This document shows positions 2,730 through 19,215 of a DNA stretch of 64,000 bases, piece after piece. The stretch is from contig SSEL01000002.1 in NCBI GenBank assembly GCA_008012315.1, positions 124,001 through 188,000 of the forward strand, written 5' to 3'. This DNA is from Rhodospirillaceae bacterium (lineage in GTDB: Bacteria; Pseudomonadota; Alphaproteobacteria; Dongiales; Dongiaceae). A program made the translations under genes and the position numbers. The notes below the pieces were generated by a model that ran no database searches, was not told the DNA's origin, and saw nothing but the letters and a program-made list of their open reading frames with translations. The stretch's first letter is position 1; every line of letters begins with the position of its first letter.

Positions 2730-3665
2730 TTATCGTTCGCCTCGCACATAAGGCAGGCCCAAGGCCGGCGGCAGGACGCTGTGCCGGGCAAAGATGACGA
2801 GGACCAGCATCACCATGGCGAAAGGTAGCATCTGCACGACATCGGTCGGGATATTGATGCCGGCCACCTGCAAGGCCGTGGTCATCGCCAGGCTGATCCC
2901 GAACAACGCCGCGCCCAGCAGCACCCAGACCGGCCGGCCGCGCGCGAGCATCGCGAGGACGATGCCGATGAAACCGGCGCCATTGGTCATGAACGGCACG
3001 AACAGGCCGGCACCGACATTCGCCATATAGGCACCGCCGATACCCGCCAGAAAGCCGGTGGCCAGTACCGCCGCCGACCGCGTTGCCAGAACGCTGACCC
3101 CGGCCGCATCGAGTGCCGCCGGCTTGTTTCCGGCGGATTCCAGATTAAGCCCGATGAAGCTGTTACGGAACAGCCAAGCCAGGAAAAAGGTCAGGAGAAC
3201 CGCCAGATAGACCAGCGCATTGTGATTGAAGAGCGCCTGGCCGAGCACCGGAATATCGGAAAGACCGGGAATTGCCAAAGTCGGCACCGGCGACAATCTT
3301 GGATAGGTGCGGCTGAACTGGACGTAATGCAACAGCGCCGTCAGCCCTTCGAAGCCGATCGTCAGGGCGATGCCGATGACGATCTGGTTGAGGCCAAGGC
3401 GGATGCACAGCAAGGCGACAAGTGCCGCAACCACCATGCCGCCAAGCCCGCCGAAGAGATAGCCCAGCCAGAACGATCCCGTGTAATAGGCGGCGACGAA
3501 ACCGCAATAGGCACCGAACAGCATCATGCCTTCGATGCCAATATTCAGGACCCCCGCCTTTTCCGAAATCTGTTCGCCGAGGCCGGCCAGCAGCAAGGGG
3601 ATGCCGGCCGTGACGGCGCCAAAAATCAGCGATGTCAGGAAAGATTGGGTGAGCAGGACGTCCAT
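2730..3665 (-). CDS. BMP-type ABC importer, permease 2
   Basis: A 311-residue integral membrane protein of the branched-type (BPD_transp_2) permease family, with eight or more hydrophobic segments and the family segment EKAGVLNIGIEGMMLFGA near residues 33-50. It should form half of the membrane channel of an importer for nucleoside-like or vitamin-like ligands. It starts 4 bases after the companion permease, so the two are translationally linked. The substrate cannot be read from the sequence; the location beside 4-pyridoxolactonase makes a B6 vitamer plausible (inference). Confidence 0.9.
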   Translation of the reverse strand: MDVLLTQSFLTSLIFGAVTAGIPLLLAGLGEQISEKAGVLNIGIEGMMLFGAYCGFVAAYYTGSFWLGYLFGGLGGMVVAALVALLCIRLGLNQIVIGIALTIGFEGLTALLHYVQFSRTYPRLSPVPTLAIPGLSDIPVLGQALFNHNALVYLAVLLTFFLAWLFRNSFIGLNLESAGNKPAALDAAGVSVLATRSAAVLATGFLAGIGGAYMANVGAGLFVPFMTNGAGFIGIVLAMLARGRPVWVLLGAALFGISLAMTTALQVAGINIPTDVVQMLPFAMVMLVLVIFARHSVLPPALGLPYVRGER

Positions 3666-3669
3666 CGCC

Positions 3670-4764
3670 CTAATCCTTCACACGCTTGCGCCAGAGTTGA
3701 TCGAGATATTCGACCAGCGCCAGGAAAAGCAGCAGCAGGGCGACAAGCACCAGGACATAATGCTGCGGCACGCCGATCCGGCGCGAGGCGCTTTCACCGC
3801 CGATCATCAGGATCGCGAAGAACAAGGTGAAGCCGATCGTGCCGATGCCGTGGAACCGGGCCAGGAAGACCAGGGGCACGACGACCAGGCCATAAGCCGG
3901 ATTCCAATCCGCCCGCACCGTTCCCCAGACACCGAGGATCTCGATCGATCCGGCAAGCCCGATCAGCCCGGCACTCAAGGCGAAGGTCGCAATCGTCAGC
4001 CAGGCGACATTGAGGCCGGCATGAACGGCAGCCCGCGGATTGGCGCCGACGATCTGCAGCTTCAGGCCGAACGACGTGCGAGTCATCATGATATGCACCA
4101 GCACGATGACCACCAGGGCAATCAGGATACCGGCATGAACCGTGGTATCGAACAGCCGCGGCAAACGGTCTGCCACCGGCAGGTCGGGCGTCTGCGGCAC
4201 GGTCGTCGTCGGATCGCGAAAGACCAGCTTCACCAGCACATTGGCAAAGCTGATGCCGAGGAAGCTCATCATCAGCGAGGTGATGATCTCATTGATGCCG
4301 TAGCGCGCCTTCAACAAGGCGGGCAGCAATGCCCAAAGCGCCGATACCGCGACCGACACCACGATGCAGCAGATGATCATCAGCGATCGTGGCATCACCT
4401 GAATAAGAGCCGGTGCGAGCGCCGCCGTGATGACCGCCGCCAACAGGAACTGGCCATCGCCGCCCAGATTCCAGATACCGGCCCGAAAGGCGACGATCAG
4501 CCCCGCCGCCATGAGCAGCAGCGGCACCATCCGCGTCAAGGTCGCCTGGAAGCCGCCCCAACTGAACAGGCCGCGATTCAGCACATAGCCGTAATAATCC
4601 AGCGGATTCTTGCCCATCGCAAAGAGGATGAGCCCGCCCACCACCAGCGCCAGCAGGACCGGCAGGAAAATGCGCAATACGGCCGCAAGCGTCGATTTCA
4701 CCAGCTTGCTGCTGGGCGGCTGGGGCACGGCGGAATCGGCCCGGGTATCAGATACGAAACTCAT
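3670..4764 (-). CDS. BMP-type ABC importer, permease 1
   Basis: A 364-residue membrane protein of the same family, the longer of the permease pair, with a hydrophilic N-terminal tail of about 25 residues before the first membrane segment (AAVLRIFLPVLLALVVGGLILF). The segment AGIWNLGGDGQFLLAA is typical of permeases that pair with BMP binding proteins. Its ATG overlaps the stop codon of the ATPase gene (ATGA), which shows coupled translation in the order binding protein, ATPase, permease, permease. Confidence 0.9.
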   Translation of the reverse strand: MSFVSDTRADSAVPQPPSSKLVKSTLAAVLRIFLPVLLALVVGGLILFAMGKNPLDYYGYVLNRGLFSWGGFQATLTRMVPLLLMAAGLIVAFRAGIWNLGGDGQFLLAAVITAALAPALIQVMPRSLMIICCIVVSVAVSALWALLPALLKARYGINEIITSLMMSFLGISFANVLVKLVFRDPTTTVPQTPDLPVADRLPRLFDTTVHAGILIALVVIVLVHIMMTRTSFGLKLQIVGANPRAAVHAGLNVAWLTIATFALSAGLIGLAGSIEILGVWGTVRADWNPAYGLVVVPLVFLARFHGIGTIGFTLFFAILMIGGESASRRIGVPQHYVLVLVALLLLFLALVEYLDQLWRKRVKD

Positions 4765-6371
4765 CCCTGTGCCGCTCCCGTCATCAGCAGGCCGATCTGC
4801 CGTTCCGCCTGGCCGGCATTATCGACGATACCGGCGAGCCGGCCCTGAAACATGACGCCAATGCGATCCGACAATTCCAGCAACTCGTCCAGCTCCGTGG
4901 AGATGACGATGGTCGCCAACCCCTTCTCCGCGCCGTCGCGAATACGTTCGCGGGCAAGACGGATATTGTGCAGGTCGAGCCCATAGGTCGGCTTGTTGAA
5001 GATGGCGATGCTGGCCGTCTCCGTCAATTCACGCGCCAGCAGAGCTTTCTGGATATTGCCTCCAGACAATTTGGCGATCGGCGTTCGTTCCGACGGGGTA
5101 CGGATGTCATAGGTACGGATCTGATCGCGCGCCTGCTGATTGACCTTGTCCCACAGGGTCAGGCCATTGCGCCAAAGCGGCGGCCGGCCGATTTCCTTGA
5201 GGACCAGGTTGGTCGCGACGGAAAAGATGCCGACGGTTCCCTCGCCCAGCCGCTCATCGGTGATGTAGCGCAGGCCGAGCTCGCGCCGCGCTTCGACGCC
5301 GCCCACCGTGACATTCCGGTCGCCGATGACGATCTCGCCTTCGGCTGCCGGCCGCTGTCCGGCGAGGACTTCGGCAAGATGTTTCTGGCCGTTCCCATCG
5401 ACACCGGCAATGCCGAGAATCTCGCCCGGCCGCAGCTCGAAACTGACATCGCGGATCGGGCATTCGCCGCGCTCGGCAACCGTCGAAAGATGGCGCACAA
5501 TCAGCCGTGGCGATTGGTTGGCGATGTTTCGATCGGCTCTCCGGCGGTGCTGGCCCAGCAGAACGTCGACCTCGCCGCCGGTTTTGTCGCGCGCGCCGAA
5601 CATCAGATGGATGACTTCCTCGGTCACGTCATGCTGCGACATCGTCGCCCGGCGTCCCGGCTCGATACTGCCGACGAGGCGGCCAAGGCGCAGCACGGAG
5701 ATGCGGTCGCCGAACTCATAGGCCTCCTGCATCTTGTGGGTGATCAGGACGATCGCGACACCCTTGTCGCGCAATCTCTTCAGCACCTCGCCGAGATCGC
5801 GCACACCCTGGGGCGTCAGCATCGAGGTCGGTTCATCCAGGATCAGTACCTGCTCGCCGCGCCAGAGGGCGCGCATGATTTCGACCTGCTGCTGCTGACC
5901 GAGCGACAGGCGGCCGATCTGTGCATCGGGATCGATGCTGACCCCGAGCAAGCCGGACAATTCGGCGAAACGCGCCAAGGCCGGCGCCTTGTTGAGGCGC
6001 TGCCACCAGGGGCCACCCAGCATCAGATTCTCGATGACCGTCAGGCTCGGTACCAGCAAAACATGCTGGAAGACCGTGCCGATGCCGTGATCCAGGCTGA
6101 CCCGCGGCGAGGTCAGCCGCATCGGCCTGCCGGCCAGCAGAATCTCACCGGAATCGGGTTGCTGCATGCCGGCCAGCATGGCGATCAGGGTCGATTTACC
6201 GGCCCCATTCTCGCCCAGCAGCACGTGAATCTCGCCGGCATGGAATGCCAGCGAGACGTCATCATTGGCCACGACGCCGGGATAGCGCTTGGTAATGCCG
6301 GTCACGGCAATGGCGGGGACGCGTCCTGACGAAGCGCCCGCCGCCCGCGCGGATACTGTTTCTTGGGCCAT
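4761..6371 (-). CDS. BMP-type ABC importer, double ATPase
   Basis: A 536-residue protein with two ABC ATPase domains in tandem, the RbsA/NupA arrangement. Domain 1 (about residues 20-250) has Walker A GENGAGKST, signature LSLGQQQQ and Walker B VLILDEPTSML. Domain 2 (about 280-520) has a degenerate Walker A (GVDGNGQKHL) and signature LSGGNIQK, normal for this family, so only one site is likely to hydrolyse ATP efficiently. In the second Walker B the usual acidic run is replaced by AIFNKPTYGLD, again common in these proteins. It powers the two permeases encoded just downstream. Confidence 0.92.
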   Translation of the reverse strand: MAQETVSARAAGASSGRVPAIAVTGITKRYPGVVANDDVSLAFHAGEIHVLLGENGAGKSTLIAMLAGMQQPDSGEILLAGRPMRLTSPRVSLDHGIGTVFQHVLLVPSLTVIENLMLGGPWWQRLNKAPALARFAELSGLLGVSIDPDAQIGRLSLGQQQQVEIMRALWRGEQVLILDEPTSMLTPQGVRDLGEVLKRLRDKGVAIVLITHKMQEAYEFGDRISVLRLGRLVGSIEPGRRATMSQHDVTEEVIHLMFGARDKTGGEVDVLLGQHRRRADRNIANQSPRLIVRHLSTVAERGECPIRDVSFELRPGEILGIAGVDGNGQKHLAEVLAGQRPAAEGEIVIGDRNVTVGGVEARRELGLRYITDERLGEGTVGIFSVATNLVLKEIGRPPLWRNGLTLWDKVNQQARDQIRTYDIRTPSERTPIAKLSGGNIQKALLARELTETASIAIFNKPTYGLDLHNIRLARERIRDGAEKGLATIVISTELDELLELSDRIGVMFQGRLAGIVDNAGQAERQIGLLMTGAAQG

Positions 6372-6390
6372 TCCTACTACCCGCTCAATC

Positions 6391-6422
6391 GGATCGCCAT
6401 ATGCCCCGGCATATGGCGATCC
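6391..6422. repeat. Strong hairpin between binding-protein and ATPase genes
   Basis: GGATCGCCATATGCC (6391-6405) is followed after two C residues by its exact reverse complement GGCATATGGCGATCC (6408-6422). There is no T-run, so it probably protects the 3' end of the BMP binding-protein message or attenuates the downstream genes. Confidence 0.75.
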
Positions 6423-6450
6423 TGATCTTACACGTTATGCACCGAACGGG

Positions 6451-7518
6451 TTACTTCGCATCGACCGAGGTCATCAAGGCCCGCACCTTCTGGGCATCGA
6501 AGACCGGCTCGACCTTGATCTTGCCGTCGATGATCTGCTGGCGCAGGTCGGAAATTTCCTTCCAGACATTGTCCGGAATGTATTTGCTGTGCAGCAGTTG
6601 GACGGAATTGTCCTTCAGGCTGATCTCGTATTTATGCGTACCGAACTTGTCGGTCTTGATATCCTCGATCATGGCGCTGTAAACCGGCTCAAGGTTCCAG
6701 ATCACCGAGGAAAGCAGGTTGCCCTTGTCGATCGGCGTCTTGTCGCCGATCACATCGATGAAATAAGCTTTGTCGCCCTTCACCGGCTTGGTCGTCTCGA
6801 CGGCCTGCAACATGCCGAAGCTGGCACCGTCGCCCTGGCCGAAGATGATATCCGCACCGGCGCCGATGACGGTTTCGGTGACGCGGCGGCCACCGGCGGC
6901 GTCGGAATAGGCGGCCGGGCCGATCACGGCATAGATGATCTTGACATTGCTGTTCTCCGCCTTCACGCCCTCGGCAAAAGCCGCCGATTGCGAGTTCCAG
7001 GAAGGCGGCTCGCCCGACACGACGATGCCGACCGCACCCGTCTGCGTCATCTTGGCGGCAAGACGTCCCGCCAGATAGGCACCCTGATGGCCGCTCAAGG
7101 TATAATCGGCGATCTGTCCCGGTTTATTAGCATCGGGCCGATCGACGATCGCTACCGGCACCTTGGTCTCGGCACCGATTTCCGGCGCCGCCGTGTTATA
7201 GCCGCTGGCATGAGCGATCAGCAGATTGGCGCCGTCTTCCGCCAGTTCGCGCAAGGTCGGACGCACATCGCCATAGCCGAGACCGGTCGCCGGCATGAAA
7301 TCCAGGCCGTATTTCGCCGCCACGGCCTTGGCGGCTTCAAAGCCCTGCTGGTTCCAGCCGTAATCGGTCGGATCTTCCGGCGTCAGAATGGCAATCTTCT
7401 TGATCTCGCCGGCCGATGCGATTTGTAGCATCAGCAGATTGCCCAAGCCGACGGCACCCGACAAAACGGTCGCCGCCAGCAGAAGCCGCATGCGCTTCGT
7501 GAATTTCCTTCTTGTCAT
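6451..7518 (-). CDS. BMP-family substrate-binding protein
   Basis: A 355-residue periplasmic binding protein of the BMP/PnrA family, the ligand-capturing part of the importer encoded downstream. The N-terminus has basic residues (MTRRKFTKRMR), a hydrophobic stretch and a probable cleavage site after IASAG. There is no lipobox cysteine, so it should be soluble in the periplasm. The ATG at 7518 is preceded by GGGAGGGCCAAG and was preferred over an in-frame start 45 bases upstream. Known members bind nucleosides, riboflavin or autoinducer-like ligands; here a B6 vitamer or pathway intermediate is an inference from context. A TATAAT-containing promoter lies just upstream. Confidence 0.9.
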   Translation of the reverse strand: MTRRKFTKRMRLLLAATVLSGAVGLGNLLMLQIASAGEIKKIAILTPEDPTDYGWNQQGFEAAKAVAAKYGLDFMPATGLGYGDVRPTLRELAEDGANLLIAHASGYNTAAPEIGAETKVPVAIVDRPDANKPGQIADYTLSGHQGAYLAGRLAAKMTQTGAVGIVVSGEPPSWNSQSAAFAEGVKAENSNVKIIYAVIGPAAYSDAAGGRRVTETVIGAGADIIFGQGDGASFGMLQAVETTKPVKGDKAYFIDVIGDKTPIDKGNLLSSVIWNLEPVYSAMIEDIKTDKFGTHKYEISLKDNSVQLLHSKYIPDNVWKEISDLRQQIIDGKIKVEPVFDAQKVRALMTSVDAK

Positions 7519-7620
7519 CTTGGCCCTCCCAAAGCCTTCCCGATGTTGCCCTCGAAACGCCACTTGTTTAGCAGTTATTCGATACCCCTGAAGTCGATAT
7601 TCCGGCGGATCGAGGTCTTG

Positions 7621-7665: not shown

Positions 7666-8583
7666 CTAGCTTTGTAACGTCTTGCGCACGGAAACCAGCT
7701 TGCGGGCGCGCTGCTCCCGCAATTCGGCAATCCGTTCCGGCGTGTAGTCGAAAACACCGCCACCGGTTTTGATTCCCAGCTTTCCTGACGCCGTCCTGTC
7801 AGTGACATATTTGCTGACATCGGTGCGATTGCAGAGTTCCTTGTTCAGGTAGCTGCCGACCGCCTGATAGATGTCGAGCCCGGCCATGTCGAGCAGCGCC
7901 ATCGGCCCGATCACCGCCAGCTTATAGCCGATGCCCCAGGAAACGCAGGTATCCAGCCCCTCGACATCGATAACGTCCTGATCCACCAAGTCGACGCATT
8001 CGCGCAGCAGGGCATAGAGAACGCGGTTCTCGACGAAACCCGGCACATCCTTCTTGACCACGACCGGCAGCAGGCCGATCGACTTGATCACATCGACCAT
8101 CCATTTGACGATCTCCGGCGACGTCTTCTCGCCGGCGACGACCTCGATCATGGGAATGATATGCGGCGGGTTCGACCAATGCATCCCGACCAGCCGTTCG
8201 GGATGGGCGACGCCCGCCTGGATCTTGCTGATCGGAATGCCCGATGTATCGGAGGCGAGGATACAGGTCTTGTCCACCAGCTGTTCGACCTCGCGGAAGA
8301 TCTCGATCTTGAGATCGAGCTTCTCCGGCACGGTCTCCAGAACGAAATCGGCGCCCTTGACGCAATCGGCCAGGGTTTCCGCGATCCGGATTTCCGACCC
8401 ATTGCTTTTATCCGGCACGCCGAGATTGCCCAGCACGGCCTGCGCCACAGCCAGATTCTGCGCAGCCTTCTGGCGTTGATCCGGGCTCGCATCATAGGCC
8501 GTGACGCTCATGCCACCACGTGCCAGCGTCGCAGCGATGCCGGGCCCCATCGTGCCGAGACCGATAATTGCGGCCTTTGTCAT
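7666..8583 (-). CDS. FHMPC dehydrogenase (3-hydroxyacyl-CoA dehydrogenase fold)
   Basis: A 305-residue NAD-dependent enzyme with an N-terminal Rossmann domain (GLGTMGPG at about residues 8-15) and a C-terminal helical dimer domain, the layout of 3-hydroxyacyl-CoA dehydrogenases. It is much closer to the M. loti enzyme that oxidises 5-formyl-3-hydroxy-2-methylpyridine-4-carboxylate to the 4,5-dicarboxylate than to ordinary fatty acid enzymes: GMHWSNPPHIIPMIEV, LLPVVVKKDVPGFVENR, LDTCVSWGIGYK and GPMALLDMAGLDIY all match my recollection. AGGGGACAGG precedes the ATG. It is the step immediately before ring cleavage and sits in the same run as a putative ring-cleaving bicupin. Confidence 0.92.
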   Translation of the reverse strand: MTKAAIIGLGTMGPGIAATLARGGMSVTAYDASPDQRQKAAQNLAVAQAVLGNLGVPDKSNGSEIRIAETLADCVKGADFVLETVPEKLDLKIEIFREVEQLVDKTCILASDTSGIPISKIQAGVAHPERLVGMHWSNPPHIIPMIEVVAGEKTSPEIVKWMVDVIKSIGLLPVVVKKDVPGFVENRVLYALLRECVDLVDQDVIDVEGLDTCVSWGIGYKLAVIGPMALLDMAGLDIYQAVGSYLNKELCNRTDVSKYVTDRTASGKLGIKTGGGVFDYTPERIAELREQRARKLVSVRKTLQS

Positions 8584-8651
8584 CCTGTCCCCTGTCCTGC
8601 TTTATCCCAGCAAGGATGAACTGCCACATCGCAGCCCATCCGCGATCCCTC

Positions 8652-9254
8652 TTAATTGAAGACTTTCTTGAAAGCCGGTCGGGCCAGCAAGCGATCGCGC
8701 CAATCCTGCAGTTTCGGCAGCGCCGGCAGCTCGACCGGAAAAGCCAAGCAACGCGTGACGATCGAAGCCAGACTGAATTCCGCCAGGCTCAGATCCTTGC
8801 CGGCAAGCCAGGGCTGCGACGCCAGGGCCTTTTCGAGAATCTGCAATTGCACGATCAGCTCCTTGCTGTCGGTCGCCCAGCTCGCCCCCCGCTCCTCAGC
8901 CGGCTTCTTGGCTTCCTTGAAGATGCCGAGATAGGGGTTGTTTAACGCCGAGAGCTGCCAGTCCATCCAGCGTTCGACCTTCGTGCGGGTCGCCGGATCG
9001 GTCGGGTAGAAGGCGGTATTACCGGCCTTGTTGCAGAGATAGCGCAGGATCGTGTTCGACTCCCAGATGACGACATCGCCATCGACCACGGTCGGCACCT
9101 TGCCGTTCGGATTGAGATTGAGATAGGCAGCGTCCTGAGTGTTGTTGAACTGGCGGCCGTAATCTTCGCGCTGATACGGAATGCTCAGTTCTTCCAGCAA
9201 CCAAAGAACCTTCTGCACATTGCCCGATGTGCTGCGACCGAGAACTCTTAGCAT
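8652..9254 (-). CDS. Glutathione S-transferase family protein
   Basis: A 200-residue protein with an N-terminal thioredoxin-like domain (LRVLGRSTSGNVQKVLWLLEEL) containing the GSH-binding VPTVVDGD and ESNTI segments at about residues 54-70, then an all-helical C-terminal domain. The NTD serine region RSTSGNV fits the theta/beta-like active site. In gentisate pathways a GST-fold enzyme isomerises the ring-cleavage product maleylpyruvate; a similar cis/trans isomerase role for a ring-opened pyridine here is inference from the neighbouring bicupin dioxygenase. AGGGAGG lies 9 bases before the ATG. Confidence 0.88.
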   Translation of the reverse strand: MLRVLGRSTSGNVQKVLWLLEELSIPYQREDYGRQFNNTQDAAYLNLNPNGKVPTVVDGDVVIWESNTILRYLCNKAGNTAFYPTDPATRTKVERWMDWQLSALNNPYLGIFKEAKKPAEERGASWATDSKELIVQLQILEKALASQPWLAGKDLSLAEFSLASIVTRCLAFPVELPALPKLQDWRDRLLARPAFKKVFN

Positions 9255-9346
9255 TTCATAAGCCTCCCTGAGAGGACAAGCGACGCATCAGCCTGCTTGT
9301 CTAATTTCACTATTTGCCAGCACTGCATTGCCAGTGCCGCCGCTTA

Positions 9347-9736
9347 TCACTGCGGCTTATAGGCGATGGCATCCATTTCGATTTTCGTATCGATCACTGC
9401 GCGCGCTTCCACTGTGGTCCGCGCGATATGACCTTCCGGGAAATATTCGGCGAAGACGCGATTGTAGCGGCCGAAATCGCGGGTATCTTCCAGATAGACC
9501 GTGACGCGGACGATATCGCTGAGATCGGCCCCATCCAGCGCCAGAATTCGGCGCAGGGCTTCGATCGTCCAACGGGTCTGGTCCTCGATGGTGCCGGCAC
9601 ACATATTGCCCTTTTCATCCTTGGCCACCTGGCCCGAGATGAAAATGAAGTCGCCTGCCCGCACGGCGGGATGGAACGGCAGGTTGGGATTCTTCGTGCC
9701 GATCGGCTTGATTTTCGCTGTCTTCTTGTCGCTCAT
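9347..9736 (-). CDS. RidA (YjgF/YER057c/UK114) family protein
   Basis: A 129-residue trimer-forming protein. RidA hydrolyses reactive enamines and imines such as 2-iminopropanoate to keto acid and ammonia; RutC in pyrimidine degradation is a relative. The signature Arg is R106 in HIARTTVEA and the conserved acidic residue is E120 in KIEMDAIA, so it should be catalytically competent. It begins 12 bases after the LVIVD gene. Cleavage of a 2-methyl-3-hydroxypyridine ring between C3 and C4 would leave a pyruvate-type ketimine, the substrate class of RidA, so the gene fits an N-heterocycle pathway (inference). Confidence 0.92.
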   Translation of the reverse strand: MSDKKTAKIKPIGTKNPNLPFHPAVRAGDFIFISGQVAKDEKGNMCAGTIEDQTRWTIEALRRILALDGADLSDIVRVTVYLEDTRDFGRYNRVFAEYFPEGHIARTTVEARAVIDTKIEMDAIAYKPQ

Positions 9737-9748
9737 CTCAAATCCGTC

Positions 9749-10876
9749 TTAGAAAACCGTCGTTTCGATGATATCCACGCCGCGCTGGCGATCGATCAGG
9801 TAAAGGATCCCACGGTCGTCGATCGTCACATCGTTCGACGAGGCCAGTTCATGTCCTTCCGGGGCATCCGCTTCGTAGAACCCGACCTCCTTCGGCCGAT
9901 AAGGATCGGCGATATCGATCAGACGAAGCCCCTTGGCGAACCAGGCGAAGGGGATGATCGTGCCGTTGAAACGCTCCGACGGCTGATGGCATCCCATCAT
10001 CGGCGGCTGCGGCGAGCCGTCCTTGTCGACACCTTCGACCTGGAAGGTCGAGATCGGAATCGGGCAATGCTCGTTGGTGATGTCGTAGATCCAGGCAAAG
10101 GCCGGTGCTGCCGGCCAGAGCTTCGCCACATCCTCGTCGGCTACCACCATGATCTGCCGGCCCTTCAGCGGCTCGGGAATGGGCAGACAGGTATGGGTGG
10201 GGTGCGGGAAGGTCGGCGATGTATTGCCGCCGGAGATCATTTTCGGCTTCGACATGTCGGAGATGTCGAGAATGTAGTAACCGTGATGCCAATAGCTGAC
10301 ATAGAGGCGGTTGCCACGACGGATCGGATGATGGCAGCGCGGCGGTGTCCAGTTGTCCCAAGGATATTCCTCGCCGCCCGCCTTCCACTGGCCGGGAATC
10401 CACCAGCGGCCAACTTCTTCCGGCTTGGCCGGGTCCTGGAGATCCAGGATCATCACGATATTGCCGATATAGCCTTCGGCCGTCGGCGAGATATAGGCAT
10501 AGCGACCATCGAAATCGTACCGATGCACGCCCTTGCCATGGGTCCGCCATTTGCTGATCAGCTTGGGTTCTGCCGGCTTCGAGACATCATAGATGCCGAG
10601 CCCGCCGCCGAAATCGGCCGGCCCGTCCGGCCCCTGCTTTTCGTGATTGACGACCATTATGCCATTGGTTGCGCGCACCTTATGCGAATGCCAGCCGACC
10701 GGCATTTCGATCCGCTTGAGGACTTTCGGATTCCTGGGATCGGCGACATCGACGATGGTCGTGCCGGTGGGCTGGCGCATATGGCCGATGAAAAGGGTCG
10801 TCCCATCGACCCAGACCTGACCGCCGCCGGGGCAATCGATATGGGCGAGACGTTTCGTGTTCAGACTTTGCGCCAT
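9749..10876 (-). CDS. LVIVD-repeat beta-propeller protein
   Basis: A 375-residue protein made of repeated blades of the LVIVD type, with recurring phrases such as TTIVDVADPRNPKVL, LGIYDVSKPAEPKLI, VMILDLQDPAKPEEVG, YYILDISDMSKPKMI and LRLIDIADPYRPKEVG. It is rich in His, Trp and Asp, and no export signal is seen, so it is probably cytoplasmic. LVIVD proteins have no established reaction. I place the start at the ATG at 10876 (GGCAGG just before it) rather than at the TTG at 10888. It is sandwiched between the bicupin dioxygenase and RidA, which suggests that it handles a ring-opened intermediate or acts as a lactonase-like propeller, but this is unproven. Confidence 0.85.
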   Translation of the reverse strand: MAQSLNTKRLAHIDCPGGGQVWVDGTTLFIGHMRQPTGTTIVDVADPRNPKVLKRIEMPVGWHSHKVRATNGIMVVNHEKQGPDGPADFGGGLGIYDVSKPAEPKLISKWRTHGKGVHRYDFDGRYAYISPTAEGYIGNIVMILDLQDPAKPEEVGRWWIPGQWKAGGEEYPWDNWTPPRCHHPIRRGNRLYVSYWHHGYYILDISDMSKPKMISGGNTSPTFPHPTHTCLPIPEPLKGRQIMVVADEDVAKLWPAAPAFAWIYDITNEHCPIPISTFQVEGVDKDGSPQPPMMGCHQPSERFNGTIIPFAWFAKGLRLIDIADPYRPKEVGFYEADAPEGHELASSNDVTIDDRGILYLIDRQRGVDIIETTVF

Positions 10877-10956
10877 GATACCTGCCAAATATGCATCGCC
10901 GGACAGTCTCTATCCGCAACGATGTCGATTTTATTGAACGATCGATGTCCAGCCGT

Positions 10957-12105
10957 TCAGGTAAGACGAACAATCTCGCCGCTCGGCTTTTTCCCATGCT
11001 TCTGATAGAGCGCCAGTGCTTTCAGCGTCGGTTCGTCGCTGGCAATGAAAAGGATCGCCGGCTCGGTCGATGACGTATTGACATGTTCGCACCAGGCGCC
11101 ACCCGGCACCGCAAAAGTATCGAACGGTTCCCAATCAAGCCGCTTGTTGCCGACGATGCTGTAGCCGCGGCCTTCGAACGGCGCGCAAAGCAGGCTGGCA
11201 TTCTGCTTCAACGGCAAGGTCTTCTCGCCGGGTCGCAGCATCTGCATGAAGAAGGTGATGGTCTTGTAGACCGGCGAACCCGTGGTCGGATCGACATATT
11301 CGATCATCAGGGCTTCATGCGGATCGCCGTCCCAATTGCGGAATTTCTCCAGCAATTCCCGCATCATATCCCAGCGATAAAGATACATCGGCGAGGCGGC
11401 GCCGGTCCCGCGGAGATGAGAGACAAAACGCGGCATCAGGCCGCCATGGCCATAGACGCGCTGCGAATAATCGCTCGGGAAGCGTTCCGACTGCACGGCG
11501 CGGCGCTTGCGCTGGCCTTCCTCTTCTTCGGTATAATCGTGTTCGAAATAGATCGCGTTCAGGGTTTCGACCAGGGGGAGGTCGAGCACGCTCAGATTGA
11601 TCGCCGGCTCGTTCCCCTGGTTGCCATGATTGTGCCAGGTGTCATGCGGCGTCAGCACCAGATCGCCCGGCCCGAAGGTGATGTTCTCCCCCTCGACGCC
11701 CGTGAAATTCATGCTGCCGGTCAGCCCCAGGCGGATCGCATTCGGCGAATGCCGGTGTGGCGGCATGATCTCATTCGGATCGTTGAGCCGATAGGCGGTA
11801 TACATGGTGGTGACCGAGGCCCGCTTCGGCGCAAGGCCCGGATTGACCAGGATCAGCGAACGGCGTTCCGAGGATTCCGTGTTGATCAATTCGGCCGAGC
11901 GATAGAGCAGCGGCTCGATATCGGCCTTGTATTTCCAGATATGCGGGACCGCCTTCTGCTTGTCCTTGATCTGATTGATCTCGTCGTGGTCGGCTTTTTG
12001 ATCGATCGCCCAGAACGGCGCCATCTGCTTGTCATAGACATCCGCATGGAGCTGATCCATCGCGACCTGCAGATTGCTGCCTTCCGGCTTCTTTGTGCTT
12101 TGCAT
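10957..12105 (-). CDS. Bicupin ring-cleaving dioxygenase, gentisate/salicylate type
   Basis: A 382-residue protein with two cupin domains. The N-terminal cupin (about 95-185) has the Fe(II) ligands H117 and H119 (PPHRHSPNAIR) and H158 (TWHNHG), the same spacing I recall for salicylate 1,2-dioxygenase (119, 121, 160). R125 and H160 match its carboxylate-contact residues. The C-terminal cupin (about 280-370) lacks metal ligands, normal for the family. Positions equivalent to the salicylate-enzyme Trp/Gly pair look like Tyr102/Ala104, as in strict gentisate enzymes. The family splits the bond between a hydroxyl-bearing and a carboxyl-bearing ring carbon. In the same run as FHMPC dehydrogenase, the natural candidate substrate is 3-hydroxy-2-methylpyridine-4,5-dicarboxylate (inference). 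Confidence 0.88.
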   Translation of the reverse strand: MQSTKKPEGSNLQVAMDQLHADVYDKQMAPFWAIDQKADHDEINQIKDKQKAVPHIWKYKADIEPLLYRSAELINTESSERRSLILVNPGLAPKRASVTTMYTAYRLNDPNEIMPPHRHSPNAIRLGLTGSMNFTGVEGENITFGPGDLVLTPHDTWHNHGNQGNEPAINLSVLDLPLVETLNAIYFEHDYTEEEEGQRKRRAVQSERFPSDYSQRVYGHGGLMPRFVSHLRGTGAASPMYLYRWDMMRELLEKFRNWDGDPHEALMIEYVDPTTGSPVYKTITFFMQMLRPGEKTLPLKQNASLLCAPFEGRGYSIVGNKRLDWEPFDTFAVPGGAWCEHVNTSSTEPAILFIASDEPTLKALALYQKHGKKPSGEIVRLT

Positions 12106-12554
12106 AGCGCACCCTTTGTCTCGCCTGGCCCGATCTGCCGTCGGCTTCGGCTGTGTTTGGAACCATTTGCGCTTATTGGTTCACGCCCAGTATCGTGATG
12201 GACCAGATCGTAACCACGTCCATGGACCAGCGTCAATATCCAACAGGATATGGTTCGATAAAATCACCAGATTGGTGCAATTATTGCCGGATCATTGTAT
12301 CCGTGGTATCGTTTTCCAGATTATTGGTTTCGGTTGAAGCGCGGCTTTCCGCGCTTTTACGGAGAATCCCGACGATATCGTCCACAGCGGAAGACGGACC
12401 TCGGGGCGAGCGTCGACCGCTTGCATAAACCTCTCCAACCGGTTATGGGCGGTTGTCTCAGGCAGGGTGGGCGGCATGGTAATACGCCTCGGTAAGGGTC
12501 TGTAAATGCCCATTGGAAATAATCGGCCAGCATAGAGAGATAACGGGAATCCGG
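12106..12554. promoter_or_regulatory. Divergent regulatory region of bicupin run and GntR gene
   Basis: This 449-base stretch has no credible gene. It holds the inverted repeat CACCA-GAT-TGGTG (12265-12277) and a direct repeat ATGGACCAG (12198-12206 and 12222-12230, 24 bases apart, two helical turns). These are candidate sites for the GntR regulator encoded at its right end, which would control the minus-strand enzyme genes and itself. Confidence 0.5.
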
Positions 12555-13322
12555 ATGATGGAGCGAATGGATCAAACCCTGAGCAAGTTGCGCCAGCTGA
12601 TCGAAGATGGCTGTGCCGACGCTGAAGGGCGCATTCCGCCGGAGCGGGTCTTGTCGAACGATCTCGGTGTCGGCCGCCGCTCGTTACGCCGTGCGCTCGA
12701 TATCCTCGAACAGGAAGGGCGGATCATTCGCCATCAAGGCCGCGGTACCTTCGTGCATGGCATGGCCGCGACGGAACCGGTGCGGGCAAATGGCACAATC
12801 GGCACTGCGATCAACCTGCCGGATGCAATGGCGGTCGGCGCCCGGGGGATCGCTTTCCAGGAAATCCTCGATCACACCAATCCTCTGGAAGTGATCGAGG
12901 TTCGCCTCTCGATCGAGCCCGTTATGGCCCGTCTGGCAGCCTTTCGCGCATCTCAGACCGATATCAAGCGGCTGCAAAGCCTGGCCGAAGAGACCCGGGA
13001 AGCGACGACATCGGCGGTTTATGAAGCAGCGGATGCGAAATTCCATCGCACCATCGCCGAGGCTGCCCGCAACGCCCTCTTTCTCGCCATCTTCGATACG
13101 CTGCATGCCAGCCAGCGCGATGCCGGCTGGCGCCGACTCGGCGAGAACGCCAATTGCTACAAGCGCCAATCGGTTCATGCCGATTTCCATCACGAGATCT
13201 CCGCAGCCATTGCCGCCCGTAAAGGCGATCGCGCCCAGGAAGTCATGCAGCAGCATCTGAGCGACATCCAGCGCCATATCTACCAGCATGCCTTTCCGGT
13301 GAGCGGCGACACCGAGCAGTAA
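12555..13322 (+). CDS. GntR/FadR-family (FCD) transcriptional regulator
   Basis: A 255-residue regulator with an N-terminal winged helix (about residues 5-75; IPPERVLSNDLGVGRRSLRRAL is the recognition region) and a C-terminal all-helical FCD ligand domain, whose Asp/His metal or ligand residues include EVRLSIEP, FHRTIAEAARN and HHEISAAI. The ATG at 12555 is preceded by GGGAATCCG. It is divergent from the bicupin-RidA-GST-FHMPC dehydrogenase run, so it is the best candidate for its repressor, with a pyridine carboxylate as inducer (inference). Confidence 0.9.
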   Translation: MMERMDQTLSKLRQLIEDGCADAEGRIPPERVLSNDLGVGRRSLRRALDILEQEGRIIRHQGRGTFVHGMAATEPVRANGTIGTAINLPDAMAVGARGIAFQEILDHTNPLEVIEVRLSIEPVMARLAAFRASQTDIKRLQSLAEETREATTSAVYEAADAKFHRTIAEAARNALFLAIFDTLHASQRDAGWRRLGENANCYKRQSVHADFHHEISAAIAARKGDRAQEVMQQHLSDIQRHIYQHAFPVSGDTEQ

Positions 13323-13881: not shown

Positions 13882-14766
13882 GTGAACGCCGCCAGCGAAC
13901 CAGCCGCGAACCGGGCCTTACCGGGCAGTCCGATCGAGAATGCTGCGTCCGTCCGGCCGGCCGGCAAGACAGGTCCGGCCATGATCACGGTGCAGGATAT
14001 CGCGATCAGCTATCCCGGCATCAAGAATGGACCGGCCGTCATTCAGGATATCAGTCTGTCGATCCGCGACGGCAGCATCGTATCGCTGATCGGGCCGTCC
14101 GGCTGCGGCAAGAGCACCTTGCTGAAAGCGATTGCCGGACTGGTTCCGCCGTCCCGGGGGCGCATGGATATCGCCGGCATTGCCCCGCAGGAAGCAGCCC
14201 AGCGCCGGCTCGTCGGCCTGGTCTTCCAGGAAGCGAACCTGCTTCCCTGGAAAACCGCCTTGGACAATGCCGCTTTCCTGCTGCAGGTATCGGATAAGCG
14301 CGTCTCGGCCAAGGAGGCCCGCGAGCGCGCCGGCGAAAATCTGAAGCTGGTCGGCCTGGGTGACGCCCTGACGAAACTGCCGTCCCAGCTTTCCGGCGGC
14401 ATGCGCCAACGCGCTTCCATCGCGCGAGCCCTCACCCTCAATCCGCAGATCCTGCTGATGGATGAGCCTTTCGGCGCGCTCGATGCGATCACCCGCGAGG
14501 AAATGAGCTATCTCATCCTCGATATATGGGAGCGCACCGGCAAGACCATCGTCCTGGTGACGCATTCGATCGACGAAGCCGTCCTTCTCTCCCACGAAGT
14601 TCATGTGATGGGCGCCAAGCCGGGCCGGATCGTTTGCTCAATCACCGTGCCTTTGGCCTTCCCGCGCAACAGCCAGAGCTTTGCCGATCCCCGCTTCCGT
14701 GAAACCGAGATCCTTCTGCGTGACCGTCTGATCGAGAGCCACGGTCGATCGCGGCAGGCATCTTAA
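13882..14766 (+). CDS. NMT1/THI5-type ABC importer, ATPase
   Basis: A 294-residue ABC ATPase of the nitrate/taurine/HMP subfamily. Walker A is GPSGCGKST (about residues 73-81), the Q-loop is FQEANLLPW, the signature LSGGMRQR and Walker B ILLMDEPFGALD, with the switch His in VTHSIDEA. The GTG at 13882 has GAGGGA upstream; an internal ATG at 13981 would remove a non-conserved 33-residue leader and is the alternative start. It is the first gene of an importer operon (ATPase, permease, binding protein) followed by a GMC oxidoreductase. Confidence 0.9.
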   Translation: MNAASEPAANRALPGSPIENAASVRPAGKTGPAMITVQDIAISYPGIKNGPAVIQDISLSIRDGSIVSLIGPSGCGKSTLLKAIAGLVPPSRGRMDIAGIAPQEAAQRRLVGLVFQEANLLPWKTALDNAAFLLQVSDKRVSAKEARERAGENLKLVGLGDALTKLPSQLSGGMRQRASIARALTLNPQILLMDEPFGALDAITREEMSYLILDIWERTGKTIVLVTHSIDEAVLLSHEVHVMGAKPGRIVCSITVPLAFPRNSQSFADPRFRETEILLRDRLIESHGRSRQAS

Positions 14767-14773
14767 GCCCGCG

Positions 14774-15589
14774 ATGGACCATGCAATGACTGACAAATCG
14801 AACAAAGGCTCAGACCTGTTCGTCGCCCTTACCGGCATGTTGCCCGGATTGGTGCTCTTCCTCGTCGTTCTCGTTCTATGGGAACTGATCATCCAGGTCT
14901 TCAACGTGTCGATCTTCGTGCTGCCGGCACCGTCGAATATCGCCGTCTCGCTGATGGCCAATGCCGCGGCATTGGCGACCGCGACCCTGATCACGGCGAA
15001 GGAGGTGCTGGTCGGCTTTGCCTTCGCCGCCGTCGTCGGCATCGCCCTTGCCTTGCTGATCGTTCGTTTCCGCTTGTTCGGCCGCGCGCTCTATCCGCTG
15101 ATCGTTCTCTTTCAGACCGTGCCGAAGGTTGCGCTCGCGCCTATTTTCATCCTGTGGTTCGGTTATGATCTCGCACCCAAGATCGTCCTCATCATGGTGA
15201 TCGCCTTCTTCCCCATCACCCTCGACATGCTGGTTGGCCTGCAATCGGTCGAGCAAAGCTTTGTCTCGTTGATGAAATCGGTCGGCGCGAAGGAAAATGA
15301 CATCATGTTGCGTGTCCGCATTCCCCATGCGATGCCGCATCTGATGGCCGGCATGAAAGTCGCCATCACCTTCAGCGTCATCGGTGCGATCGTCGGGGAG
15401 TTCGCCGGCGCCTCCGCCGGGCTTGGCTATATGATCCAGTTCGCCTCGACCCAGCTCGATACGGCCCTGGTCTTCGCCGCTTTGGTGGTCGTCTCGCTGG
15501 TCGGCGTCGTCTTTTACTATGCGATCGAAATCCTCGAACGAATCCTCATTCCCTGGGCACCGAAATTCGATGCGGTGAACCGCGCCTGA
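14774..15589 (+). CDS. NMT1/THI5-type ABC importer, permease
   Basis: A 271-residue membrane permease of the BPD_transp_1 family with about six hydrophobic segments. The coupling loop motif is seen near residues 170-190 (SVGAKENDIMLRVRIPHAMPHLMAG). It starts 7 bases after the ATPase stop. A slightly later ATG at 14786 is also possible. Resemblance is to the SsuC/TauC/ThiX group that carries aromatic sulfonates, taurine or pyrimidine precursors. Confidence 0.9.
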   Translation: MDHAMTDKSNKGSDLFVALTGMLPGLVLFLVVLVLWELIIQVFNVSIFVLPAPSNIAVSLMANAAALATATLITAKEVLVGFAFAAVVGIALALLIVRFRLFGRALYPLIVLFQTVPKVALAPIFILWFGYDLAPKIVLIMVIAFFPITLDMLVGLQSVEQSFVSLMKSVGAKENDIMLRVRIPHAMPHLMAGMKVAITFSVIGAIVGEFAGASAGLGYMIQFASTQLDTALVFAALVVVSLVGVVFYYAIEILERILIPWAPKFDAVNRA

Positions 15590-15628
15590 ATCTCGTCTTC
15601 AATCCAAATAAATTGGGAGGATAACAAC

Positions 15629-16645
15629 ATGTTGCTTCGTCATTTTTCAACCGGGCTTTTCGCCTTCGGTTTGATGGCAACGGCCATCGGCGGCTGCCTG
15701 ATCGGCAGCCAACCGGCCGCAGCGGCCGATGACGTCAAGGTCCAGCTCGACTGGGTGGTCCGGGGCGATCATGCGATGTTCTTCGTGGCGAAGGAAAAGG
15801 GTTATTTCGCGGAGAACGGCATCAACGTCACTGAGATTCGCAAAGGTACGGGCACGCCGGATGCTTTGCGCCTGGTTGCCAACGGCAATGCCGATTTCGG
15901 CTTCGGCGATTTACCGACCCTGGCCGTCACCCGTTCGCAAGGCCTGCCGGTCGTCGCCATCGTCGGCGTCAATCAGCGCAGCCCGCTTGCCATGATCTCG
16001 CTGGCCAAGCACAAGACCCTGAACAAGCCAGCTGACCTCAAGGGCCTCAATATCGGCATTCATCCGGCCGGTTCGACCTATATCTTCTTCAAGACCTTGC
16101 TCGCAGCCAATGGCATGAGCGAAAGCGATGTCACCAAGAGCTCGGTCTCGCCGCCTTACGAGAACTACCTGCTGCTCGGCCGTGTCGATGCCGTGCCGGG
16201 CTATATCGATGCCGAGGTGCCCGAACTGGAAGCCAAAGCCGGCGGCAAGGGATCGCTCAGCATCATGCTGGGCTCGAACTTCGGCTATGACATCTATGGT
16301 TCCGGCGTCTTCACATCCGACAAGATCGCCAAGGAAAAGCCGGATCTCGCGAAGCGTTTCGTCGCGGCCTATATGAAGGCCTTCCAGGATGTGGTGAAGG
16401 ACCCGAAAGCGGCGGTCGCCATCATCGCCAAGGCCAATCCGGAATATGCCGGCAAGGAAGAGGTGCTGGAAAAGCAGCTTGAAGCCGATATCTCCTCCAC
16501 CTTCGCTTCCGCAGACGGCAAGACCCCGCTTGGCGGCATGACCAAGGAAGAATGGACCAAGACCATCGATATCCTGCAGCAACAGGGAGCCTTGAAGCAG
16601 CCGATTGCCGTGGACAGCGTCTATACCGATGCTTTCTTGAAGTAA
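15629..16645 (+). CDS. NMT1/THI5-like substrate-binding protein
   Basis: A 338-residue periplasmic binding protein. A signal peptide of about 35 residues ends near QPAAAADD. The mature part begins VKVQLDWVVRGDHAMFFVAKEKGYFAENGINV, the hallmark of NMT1/THI5-like proteins such as ThiY that bind pyrimidine vitamin precursors. Tandem placement before a GMC oxidoreductase in a B6 catabolic locus suggests a pyridine vitamer as ligand (inference). GGGAGG lies 8 bases before the ATG. A 10-bp hairpin follows the stop codon. Confidence 0.9.
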   Translation: MLLRHFSTGLFAFGLMATAIGGCLIGSQPAAAADDVKVQLDWVVRGDHAMFFVAKEKGYFAENGINVTEIRKGTGTPDALRLVANGNADFGFGDLPTLAVTRSQGLPVVAIVGVNQRSPLAMISLAKHKTLNKPADLKGLNIGIHPAGSTYIFFKTLLAANGMSESDVTKSSVSPPYENYLLLGRVDAVPGYIDAEVPELEAKAGGKGSLSIMLGSNFGYDIYGSGVFTSDKIAKEKPDLAKRFVAAYMKAFQDVVKDPKAAVAIIAKANPEYAGKEEVLEKQLEADISSTFASADGKTPLGGMTKEEWTKTIDILQQQGALKQPIAVDSVYTDAFLK

Positions 16646-16684: not shown

Positions 16685-16761
16685 TCTACATTGGCCGGCG
16701 GCATTGATCGACAGCGGACAGGTCGAGAAACGCGTTGGGAATTTGGGTTGGGGCAAGGCTC

Positions 16762-18417: not shown

Positions 18418-19215
18418 TCACTGCTCTTTCGGCAGGAAATCCGTGATCACCTTGGCGACATCCTGTGGTGCCTCCGTCAGGATCGAGTGGCGCAGATGTG
18501 GGAAGATGTGCAGCTTCGATCCGGCGATGCGCTCATGCATCAGCCTGGCCATACGTGGATTGGAGCCAATATCGTTCTCGGCCGTGGCCACCAGGGTCGG
18601 AATCCTGATTTCATGCAACCGGTCCGCCAGATCGCCCGTTGCTAAAACGCGGTAAGCTGCAGCATAGGCCTTGGGATCGTTCTCCCGGCTGCGCTTGGCA
18701 TAAGCCGCGATGATATCGGGATTGGCAGCGCGGAATTCATCCGTGAACCAGCGGCTCACCGAATTCTCGAAATGCTGTCCGGGAATGCCGTTGGCAACGA
18801 TATCCAAACGATCGAGCACCCGCTTCTTTTCGTCTTCAGTCCGCCCCGATACGGTGCTGAGCAGAATCAGGTGATCCACCATTTCAGGGTGGGTCAGCGC
18901 AAATCCCTGGACAACCAGACCGCCCAGGGAGAAGCCTGCCAGATGGAGGCGGTCGATCTTCAGGTGCCGCACGAGGTCGTGGACATCCGCGACGAAATCC
19001 TCCAGCTCATACGGTCCAGGCAATTTATCGGACTGGCCGTGACCGCGCAGATCGCAACGCAGCACCGTATAGCGCTCGAGAAGATTGGGGGCGACACGGT
19101 TCCAGTCATTCAGCGAGCCGCCGACACCGTGAATGAGTACGAGAACCGGCCCCTTCCCTTCGAGACGATATCTGACCCGTAATTTGCTGAGTGTCGCAAA
19201 TTGATCCGTATCCAC
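18418..19215 (-). CDS. Alpha/beta hydrolase, enol-lactonase/RutD-like, copy 1
   Basis: A 265-residue alpha/beta-fold hydrolase. The catalytic triad is S96 (AGFSLGG), D215 (AENDIGSNP) and H243 (LRHSIL), and the oxyanion loop is HGVGG. It is closely related to the hydrolases at 28531 and 43746 (shared RWFTDEF-type and NDIGxxPR segments). It starts 19 bases after the Pot-type ATPase gene, so it is the last gene of the operon flavin reductase, LLM monooxygenase, Pot importer, hydrolase, and not part of the B6 genes beside it. It probably hydrolyses a lactone, amide or carbamate made by the monooxygenase. Confidence 0.88.
   Translation of the reverse strand: MDTDQFATLSKLRVRYRLEGKGPVLVLIHGVGGSLNDWNRVAPNLLERYTVLRCDLRGHGQSDKLPGPYELEDFVADVHDLVRHLKIDRLHLAGFSLGGLVVQGFALTHPEMVDHLILLSTVSGRTEDEKKRVLDRLDIVANGIPGQHFENSVSRWFTDEFRAANPDIIAAYAKRSRENDPKAYAAAYRVLATGDLADRLHEIRIPTLVATAENDIGSNPRMARLMHERIAGSKLHIFPHLRHSILTEAPQDVAKVITDFLPKEQ

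Follow-up and report, generated by a model that had tools for sequence, protein, structure and literature searches.

Introduction

Vitamin B6 degradation has been called the best understood cofactor catabolic pathway, and two routes are known, the second of them from Pseudomonas sp. IA and Arthrobacter Cr-7 (PMC3538738). Opening of N-heterocyclic rings has been described in other systems as well. The Fe(II) dioxygenases NicX and Hpo cleave pyridine rings; they form a subclass of their own among the non-heme iron oxygenases, with different metal ligands (PMC7910607). RutC, a member of the Rid family, is a 3-aminoacrylate deaminase in a pathway that opens an N-heterocyclic ring (PMC8113886).

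Here we analyse a 64,000-nucleotide stretch of the genome of a Rhodospirillaceae bacterium (contig SSEL01000002.1 of GCA_008012315.1; hereafter, the window). An earlier note, made from the sequence alone, had suggested that a bicupin dioxygenase encoded nearby might open 3-hydroxy-2-methylpyridine-4,5-dicarboxylate (HMPDC), which FHMPC dehydrogenase produces. Our comparisons strongly support this suggestion, through a cassette swap and the mutual exclusion of two gene sets: the lower branch of vitamin B6 degradation encoded here is probably an alternative one in which the bicupin acts on HMPDC. Literature searches turned up no account of HMPDC being opened by a bicupin or another dioxygenase, most subscription papers lying outside those searches.

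Results

The genes of interest form a compact run on the minus strand. A bicupin dioxygenase (10957-12105), an LVIVD beta-propeller (9749-10888), a Rid-family protein (9347-9736), a glutathione transferase (GST)-like protein (8652-9254) and FHMPC dehydrogenase (7666-8583; 510 bits against the NCBIfam NF042925 cut-off of 500) are all intact, stand where the earlier note had placed them, and are separated by gaps of 12-92 bp. The run extends through a BMP-type ABC importer (2730-7563; binding protein 6451-7563, ATPase 4761-6371, permeases 3670-4764 and 2730-3665), which is also found in canonical clusters and probably takes up vitamin B6, to 4-pyridoxolactonase (1821-2642; 479 bits, cut-off 325). 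Because its gaps are at most 102 bp, the run from bicupin to lactonase looks like one operon. On the plus strand lie pyridoxamine-pyruvate aminotransferase (PPAT; 1-979, truncated at the edge of the window, the remaining part scoring 530 bits), pyridoxal 4-dehydrogenase of the SDR type (1011-1751; 415 bits, cut-off 325) and, divergent from the cassette, a GntR-family regulator (12513-13322) that adjoins many bicupin cassettes. They are joined by an NMT1/ThiY-type ABC importer (ATPase, permease and binding protein; 13882-16645), which is common to canonical clusters and betaproteobacterial bicupin clusters and may import a pyridoxine-derived acid, and by a GMC oxidoreductase (16735-18378). The latter is 67-68% identical to the GMC of canonical clusters, which stands between HMPDC decarboxylase and FHMPC dehydrogenase at the position of 4-pyridoxate dehydrogenase, and by sequence it is an ortholog of that enzyme. 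Since the same neighbourhood recurs around the bicupin in dozens of species, the arrangement is not due to chance.

All the upper enzymes of the Mesorhizobium loti pathway, as far as HMPDC, were found in this genome: pyridoxine 4-oxidase, PPAT, pyridoxal dehydrogenase, 4-pyridoxolactonase, the GMC of 4-pyridoxate dehydrogenase type and FHMPC dehydrogenase. Pyridoxine 4-oxidase is a GMC protein encoded just left of the window (503 bits to 4HA6); the GMC inside the window was rejected for this role, with 240 bits to the same entry. HMPDC decarboxylase and MHPC oxygenase, which the earlier note had found missing from the window, are absent both there and from the 40 kb to its left. The note had allowed that they might lie to the left and had proposed searching the full genome (5.72 Mb, rated 100% complete), and that search excludes this possibility: MHPC oxygenase has no match at E<=1e-5 genome-wide, and HMPDC decarboxylase has no ortholog there, the only hits being paralogs of 29% identity and 43 bits. 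A Pfam scan of the whole genome returned only three full-length FAD_binding_3 proteins (two RdmE/PgaE-like of about 500 residues and one UbiH), none an MHPC oxygenase ortholog. It also gave six class II aldolases, with no HMPDC decarboxylase ortholog among them; these absences were later confirmed with true references for both enzymes. AAMS hydrolase was found in none of the 70 bicupin locus neighbourhoods. The hydrolase in the window nearest to it is about 25-32% identical, and an alpha/beta hydrolase at 18418-19215 was rejected as a candidate, its closest PDB entries being 3-oxoadipate enol-lactonase and esterases.

The bicupin model (pLDDT 89.8) finds its best PDB fold matches in 3bu7, 2phd and 2d40, with E values down to 3e-33. 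The earlier claim of an intact iron site is borne out, as His117, His119 and His158 align with the ligands His119, His121 and His160 of salicylate 1,2-dioxygenase (SDO). This triad, together with R81, R125 and H160 (equivalent to Arg83, Arg127 and His162), is kept in all seventy family members, which form one clade with support of 100/100. Gln108, Trp172 and Asp174 are strictly conserved in all gentisate 1,2-dioxygenases (GDOs) (PMC11264262). In the bicupin family they are replaced by Arg, Asn and Ser in 70 of 70 members (R106, N170 and S172 here), and none of these three states occurs in 14 outgroup proteins of GDO/SDO type. Judged by its sequences, the clade is therefore not a gentisate enzyme. 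The earlier note had raised Tyr102 and Ala104 as gentisate-like features, an objection that is weak both in view of these replacements and because position 104 is Ala or Ser in every family member and Gly in the gentisate dioxygenases compared. The invariant R106 would suit an extra acidic group on the substrate. Among plasmid records the best bicupin match reached 40% and the best FHMPC dehydrogenase match 41%, neither of them close.

The earlier note had listed RidA, a GST and an LVIVD protein on the same strand as the bicupin, giving the last of them no role; all three are real neighbours, of unequal standing. LVIVD is the constant partner, adjoining the bicupin at 57 of 70 loci. Rid and GST are accessory rather than core, since each is missing from about ten clusters (11 and 10 of the 57 LVIVD-bearing loci, respectively; one such locus, L059, is a short contig). 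The LVIVD protein is histidine-rich, with 10 invariant His, and its best PDB fold is the Sphingobium haloalkylphosphorus hydrolase, a metallo-phosphotriesterase (Foldseek E 1e-18, the next different protein at 3e-9), which also gives its only profile matches in the PDB (E 6e-11); by sequence and model it looks like a metal-dependent propeller enzyme. Rid matches its Pfam family and keeps the catalytic Arg aligned to Arg105 of E. coli RidA, near-invariant in 47 family members. It scores below the cut-offs for the RidA-type subfamily TIGR00004 (81 bits against 106) and for RutC (65 against 169), and is not RutC itself. The GST was rejected as a zeta-type maleylacetoacetate or maleylpyruvate isomerase (54 bits, maiA cut-off 171); its closest solved relative is the uncharacterised 4iel.

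Within one Mesorhizobium-like genus the same flanking genes enclose, depending on the species, either AAMS hydrolase-MHPC oxygenase-HMPDC decarboxylase or bicupin-LVIVD-Rid-GST. All seven canonical loci read PNOX< AAMSH> MHPCO> DUF> PEBP> HMPDdc> GMC> FHMPCDH> NMT importer, and all seven bicupin loci read PNOX< GntR< GMC> bicupin> LVIVD> Rid> GST> FHMPCDH> NMT importer, save for print-order noise from overlapping ORFs. References were identified by 844 bits to M. loti 3alj for MHPC oxygenase and 460 bits to 2z7b/Mlr6791 for HMPDC decarboxylase. When one bicupin genome was compared with three canonical ones, the flanking importer and lactonase genes were mostly 90-97% identical, FHMPC dehydrogenase 82-83% and GMC 80-82%. 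The last two enzymes of the genus's bicupin species are closer to those of canonical species than to those of any bicupin locus outside the genus; the enzymes that make HMPDC therefore stayed while the lower branch changed. Among 138 genomes of the genus, 20 carry the bicupin, 33 carry MHPC oxygenase and none carries both, where 4.8 would be expected (P=0.0026, a value that treats related species as independent and ignores phylogeny); the HMPDC decarboxylase search covered one of the 20 bicupin genomes. Replacement of HMPDC decarboxylase, MHPC oxygenase and AAMS hydrolase by the bicupin cassette is the best-shown point of the genomic evidence. The swap shows that the cassette as a whole does the work of these three enzymes. 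Taken together, swap and mutual exclusion imply that the cassette most likely consumes HMPDC.

In 385 genomes drawn from the class, FHMPC dehydrogenase and the bicupin (at least 67% identity) occurred in exactly the same six. Of 21 genomes bearing FHMPC dehydrogenase, 18 have the bicupin and lack orthologs of both MHPC oxygenase and HMPDC decarboxylase, and the other three have both of these enzymes and no bicupin ortholog. Among alphaproteobacteria that have FHMPC dehydrogenase, samples drawn evenly show the cassette to be no less widespread than its textbook counterpart. This dehydrogenase is kept in 40 of the 57 LVIVD loci, and eight more have an ALDH-like gene beside GMC; in betaproteobacteria it is the ALDH-like gene, still adjoining GMC, that replaces FHMPC dehydrogenase beside the cassette. 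At five loci with a bicupin and no nearby FHMPC dehydrogenase (L060, L061, L064, L077 and L078), the dehydrogenase may lie elsewhere in the genome or the substrate may differ. Burkholderiales such as Achromobacter and Bordetella carry the cassette with an importer and with none of the upper genes close by. Such an arrangement would be expected of bacteria that scavenge 4-pyridoxate, the form in which humans mainly excrete B6. Opening of the vitamin B6 ring by an iron dioxygenase cassette, in place of the three enzymes known for the end of the pathway, appears to occur in many soil and marine bacteria.

Discussion

We propose the following scheme. The upper enzymes, as their orthology supports, would convert pyridoxine, pyridoxamine and pyridoxal to HMPDC. 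The Fe(II) bicupin would bind HMPDC by the hydroxyl on C3 and the carboxylate on C4, much as salicylate is bound by its dioxygenase, insert O2 and, by analogy with that enzyme, cleave the C3-C4 bond to give the pyruvate ketimine of 2-aminomethylene-3-oxosuccinate. The LVIVD propeller, probably a metal-dependent hydrolase to judge from its constant association, fold and conserved histidines, would handle the ring-cleavage product; Rid may speed hydrolysis of the ketimine or of a 3-aminoacrylate-like enamine, and GST may have an accessory role. Overall, HMPDC + O2 + 3 H2O would yield pyruvate + NH3 + formate + oxaloacetate. We lean, if only slightly, towards the full form of this proposal: a third route of B6 ring opening, with direct cleavage of HMPDC by a new bicupin subfamily and processing of the ketimine by the LVIVD protein as a new metal-dependent propeller hydrolase. 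Rid and GST would be dispensable helpers, and neither a decarboxylase nor a flavin monooxygenase would be needed.

The bicupin could instead act earlier, on 4-pyridoxate, which carries the same 3-hydroxy-4-carboxylate motif, with the neighbouring dehydrogenases serving a parallel route. The few loci that pair bicupin and GMC without a nearby FHMPC dehydrogenase would fit this reading, but it is unlikely: it leaves that dehydrogenase, or the ALDH-like gene in its stead, without a purpose at most LVIVD loci, both HMPDC-making genes are kept in the swap genus, and R106 would suit the additional acidic group. Quite improbable, too, is that the bicupin decarboxylates HMPDC and that the propeller or another protein opens the ring. 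Cupins include decarboxylases, His-rich propellers include oxygenases, and LVIVD combines many conserved histidines with constant partnership; however, the match of the bicupin to GDO/SDO folds (3e-33) is far stronger than its match to oxalate decarboxylase (3e-13), the protein retains every catalytic Fe, Arg and His residue of the ring-cleaving dioxygenases, and the only solved LVIVD-family relative is a hydrolase. The lower branch might also be carried by unrelated ring-opening enzymes elsewhere in the window, luciferase-like monooxygenases with a flavin reductase, leaving the cassette an accessory part. Three such monooxygenases, one flavin reductase and several hydrolases do lie at 18418-45557, but these genes were not seen together again near the bicupins of other species, and only the bicupin cassette trades places with the known lower branch, making this very improbable. 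It is barely credible that an ordinary gentisate or salicylate dioxygenase stands here beside B6 genes by chance: although the fold and iron site of the bicupin are of that type and Tyr102 also occurs in gentisate dioxygenases, it scores 210 bits against the gentisate equivalog TIGR02272 cut-off of 442, the three GDO residues are replaced, its recurrent neighbours are not gentisate-pathway genes (fumarylacetoacetate hydrolase, maleylpyruvate isomerase), and both the conserved B6 context and the cassette swap stand against it.

Direct cleavage of HMPDC by the bicupin, if correct, would add a third way of opening the B6 ring to the two known routes, one in which ring opening consumes no NAD(P)H and which yields pyruvate, oxaloacetate, formate and ammonia instead of succinic semialdehyde, acetate, CO2 and ammonia. 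It would also provide functions for the bicupin subfamily, whose scores go no further than gentisate-like, and for the LVIVD-repeat family, for which we found no assigned enzyme role. With the swap lying inside one genus, gene exchange offers a direct test.

Comparison with known systems places the locus as follows. The route of Pseudomonas sp. IA and Arthrobacter Cr-7 passes through 5-pyridoxate and likewise finishes with oxygenative ring opening, whereas this genome has the 4-pyridoxate enzymes. NicX and Hpo share non-heme Fe(II) cleavage of a hydroxypyridine but are not gentisate-type bicupins. Salicylate 1,2-dioxygenase (2phd) and gentisate 1,2-dioxygenases (3bu7, 2d40) share the bicupin fold, the His3 iron site of the N-terminal cupin and the equivalents of Arg83, Arg127 and His162; the bicupin differs from them in its identity of about 30%, its replacements at positions 108, 172 and 174 and its separate clade. 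LVIVD shares its beta-propeller fold with the haloalkylphosphorus hydrolase/phosphotriesterase of Sphingobium sp. TCM1 (5hrm, 5ioj), its only sequence-profile relative in the PDB, at about 19% identity, with a partial alignment and a substrate that is certainly different. As with RutC, the Rid protein here would take part in N-heterocycle ring opening, and its proposed substrate is also a 3-aminoacrylate derivative. Closest of all is the pathway of M. loti MAFF303099 and Pseudomonas sp. MA-1, which has the same upper part to HMPDC and the same two importers; in the cluster described here, HMPDC decarboxylase, MHPC oxygenase and AAMS hydrolase give way to bicupin-LVIVD(-Rid-GST).

Results

The five genes that the earlier note had grouped together, encoding a bicupin, an LVIVD protein, Rid, GST and FHMPC dehydrogenase, are intact and lie in that order on the minus strand, with gaps of 12-92 bp, and the minus-strand run, never interrupted by more than 102 bp, extends as far as 4-pyridoxolactonase and takes in a BMP-type ABC importer. 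Three enzymes exceed the cut-offs of their NCBIfam equivalog models and are thereby confirmed: FHMPC dehydrogenase (510 bits against 500), 4-pyridoxolactonase (479 against 325) and pyridoxal 4-dehydrogenase (415 against 325). The pyridoxamine-pyruvate aminotransferase gene is truncated by the window edge, and a GMC oxidoreductase immediately left of the window scores 503 bits to M. loti pyridoxine 4-oxidase (4HA6). A GMC enzyme inside the window (16735-18378) is the ortholog (67-68%) of the one that canonical clusters have between their HMPDC decarboxylase and FHMPC dehydrogenase genes, a position that we take to be occupied in M. loti by 4-pyridoxate dehydrogenase (mlr6792).

As previously noted, the window has neither HMPDC decarboxylase nor MHPC oxygenase; the suspicion that they might lie to its left found no support, as both are absent from the 40 kb leftward. 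The whole source genome, rated 100% complete, was searched with canonical-cluster proteins as references, namely an MHPC oxygenase scoring 844 bits to 3alj and an HMPDC decarboxylase scoring 460 bits to 2z7b ('Mlr6791'). The oxygenase had no match at E≤1e-5, and for the decarboxylase the matches were limited to paralogs of 29% identity. Another bicupin genome carries two adjoining FAD monooxygenases (L169, G302:C37:82444-84662) that are ~42% identical to MHPC oxygenase; because textbook genomes hold similar paralogs alongside the true enzyme, this pair is probably another oxygenase.

Elsewhere in the window, the region 18418-45557 encodes several PcaD-like alpha/beta hydrolases, additional ABC importers, three luciferase-like monooxygenases and a flavin reductase of the HpaC type that has an extra domain at its C terminus. 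It may represent at least one other N-heterocycle or amide ring-opening cluster adjoining the B6 genes; the genes scanned there all fell below NCBIfam cut-offs. An MttB-type methyltransferase homolog (52258-53841) scores 293 bits where the pyrrolysine trimethylamine methyltransferase model requires 525, which points to a probable non-pyrrolysine MttB relative.

Bicupin orthologs were sought in 84,980 species genomes, and 70 (52-83% identity) were recovered, from alpha-, beta- and gammaproteobacteria. Within the retrieved stretches, an LVIVD gene is present at 57 of the 70 loci, the other 13 being 11 sister-clade members and two contig-end cases; Rid is found in 46, GST in 47 and FHMPC dehydrogenase in 40, and MHPC oxygenase, HMPDC decarboxylase and AAMS hydrolase in none. 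Among LVIVD, Rid and GST, LVIVD alone is close to obligatory. Rid is missing from 11 LVIVD loci and GST from 10, with bicupin and LVIVD kept; these two therefore form the core of the cassette. The cassette of Pandoraea, Achromobacter, Bordetella and relatives adjoins an NMT-type importer and a GMC enzyme, and FHMPC dehydrogenase was not found in the retrieved stretch. At eight such loci (L071, L072, L084, L087, L092, L093, L103, L104) an ALDH-like gene, called by eye from sequence, adjoins GMC in its stead and reads as a non-homologous replacement of the aldehyde-oxidising step, indicating the same acid product. Pyridoxine or pyridoxal enzymes were not found near the cassette at these loci, whose make-up resembles that of an operon devoted to scavenging 4-pyridoxate.

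In a sample drawn evenly from the phylum, FHMPC dehydrogenase occurred in four genomes of one genus, inferred from its MHPC oxygenase to be Mesorhizobium-like; three (L161-L163) have the textbook cluster and one (L164) the bicupin cassette. When the comparison was enlarged to 14 loci, all seven textbook loci had a single gene order (AAMS hydrolase, MHPC oxygenase, DUF protein, PEBP-like protein, HMPDC decarboxylase), and all seven bicupin loci had bicupin, LVIVD, Rid and GST in their place; at L204 and L205, two neighbour genes are exchanged in print order only, as overlapping ORFs were sorted by start. The same GMC, FHMPC dehydrogenase and importer genes flank both cassette types. Identity between L164 and L161-L163 is mostly 90-97% for the flanking genes, 82-83% for FHMPC dehydrogenase and 80-82% for GMC. 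Across the bicupin species of this genus, the latter two are 78-85% identical to those of textbook species and at most 68% to those of bicupin clusters outside the genus, which indicates that the lower branch was exchanged next to HMPDC-producing enzymes that had been retained.

Two further features of these loci deserve mention. The bicupin loci (L164, L201-L205, L210) carry a pyridoxine 4-oxidase of a different lineage, ~54% identical to that of textbook species and accompanied by a GntR regulator, as though it had arrived with the cassette. The textbook Mesorhizobium cassette includes an 'amino acid synthesis'-like protein (L163:5886-6950; DUF1185-type by eye) with the PEBP-like protein, and a similar-looking protein occurs near some bicupin clusters (L076:10120-10662, L102:13201-13743); we know of no described role for either in B6 degradation.

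Among 138 genomes of the swap genus, the bicupin occurs in 20, MHPC oxygenase in 33 and both in none, against 4.8 expected by chance (hypergeometric P of zero = 0.0026, relatedness ignored). Of 385 genomes from the class, six have FHMPC dehydrogenase, and the bicupin (≥67% identity) is found in those six and no others; in 398 phylum genomes the dehydrogenase occurs in six, three with the bicupin and three with the textbook cluster.

Salicylate dioxygenase contacts its substrate through Arg83, Gln108, Arg127, His162, Trp172 and Asp174, residues described as strictly conserved among known gentisate dioxygenases (PMC11264262). The window protein and 69 orthologs, 70 family members in all, were aligned with 14 gentisate/salicylate dioxygenase-type proteins. 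All 70 retain the iron ligands, already reported as intact in the window protein, and residues equivalent to Arg83, Arg127 and His162. Gln108, Trp172 and Asp174 are replaced in all 70 by Arg, Asn and Ser, states found in none of the 14. The aligned residues indicate that the family keeps the O2-activation machinery and differs in substrate-specifying positions, and the additional Arg would fit a substrate with an extra acidic group. The earlier concern that Tyr102/Ala104 look gentisate-like carries little weight, as gentisate dioxygenases have Gly at 104 and Tyr is frequent across the wider family. The bicupins form one clade (support 100/100) on a long branch; those linked to LVIVD make up a subclade (99/95). 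A sister clade of 11 from Defluviicoccus and others (L081, L082, L085, L086, L089, L091, L094-L098) shares the R106/N170/S172 signature but has Phe102 and no LVIVD partner.

Discussion

The swap and the mutual exclusion are the clearest evidence that the bicupin cassette takes the place of the textbook lower branch, starting from HMPDC, which is very probably the bicupin's substrate. Our literature search, with most subscription journals outside its reach, found no such bicupin route for HMPDC, so priority is not certain. Sequence evidence shows which genes are there and that the textbook enzymes are missing, and it likewise supports the clade with its signature in the active site, the conservation of the cassette, its swap and the mutual exclusion; the chemistry is our proposal. 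HMPDC would be cut between C3 (OH) and C4 (COOH), as in salicylate-type cleavage, giving the pyruvate ketimine of 2-aminomethylene-3-oxosuccinate, and the bicupin is likely to perform this step.

For the LVIVD protein (61-85% identity to the window protein in all groups), we propose a putative metal-dependent hydrolase, a hydrolase function being slightly favoured. Invariant residues are His36, 67, 69, 122, 186, 187, 201, 229, 232 and 301, Cys185 and Cys300, and His202 is near-invariant. The AlphaFold model is confident (pLDDT 89.9). The Sphingobium TCM1 haloalkylphosphorus hydrolase/phosphotriesterase is the best fold match, with an E-value some nine orders of magnitude below that of the next different protein, and also the only PDB match to the family profile (E 6e-11); the two proteins have a fold in common.

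Hydrolysis of the C=N bond would free pyruvate, and deamination of the remaining enamine would yield formyl-oxaloacetate, then formate and oxaloacetate (C8H7NO5 + O2 + 3 H2O → C3H4O3 + NH3 + CH2O2 + C4H4O5); we offer these final products tentatively. The enamine would be a 3-aminoacrylate derivative, and it resembles the 3-aminoacrylate-kind substrate that RutC deaminates (PMC8113886).
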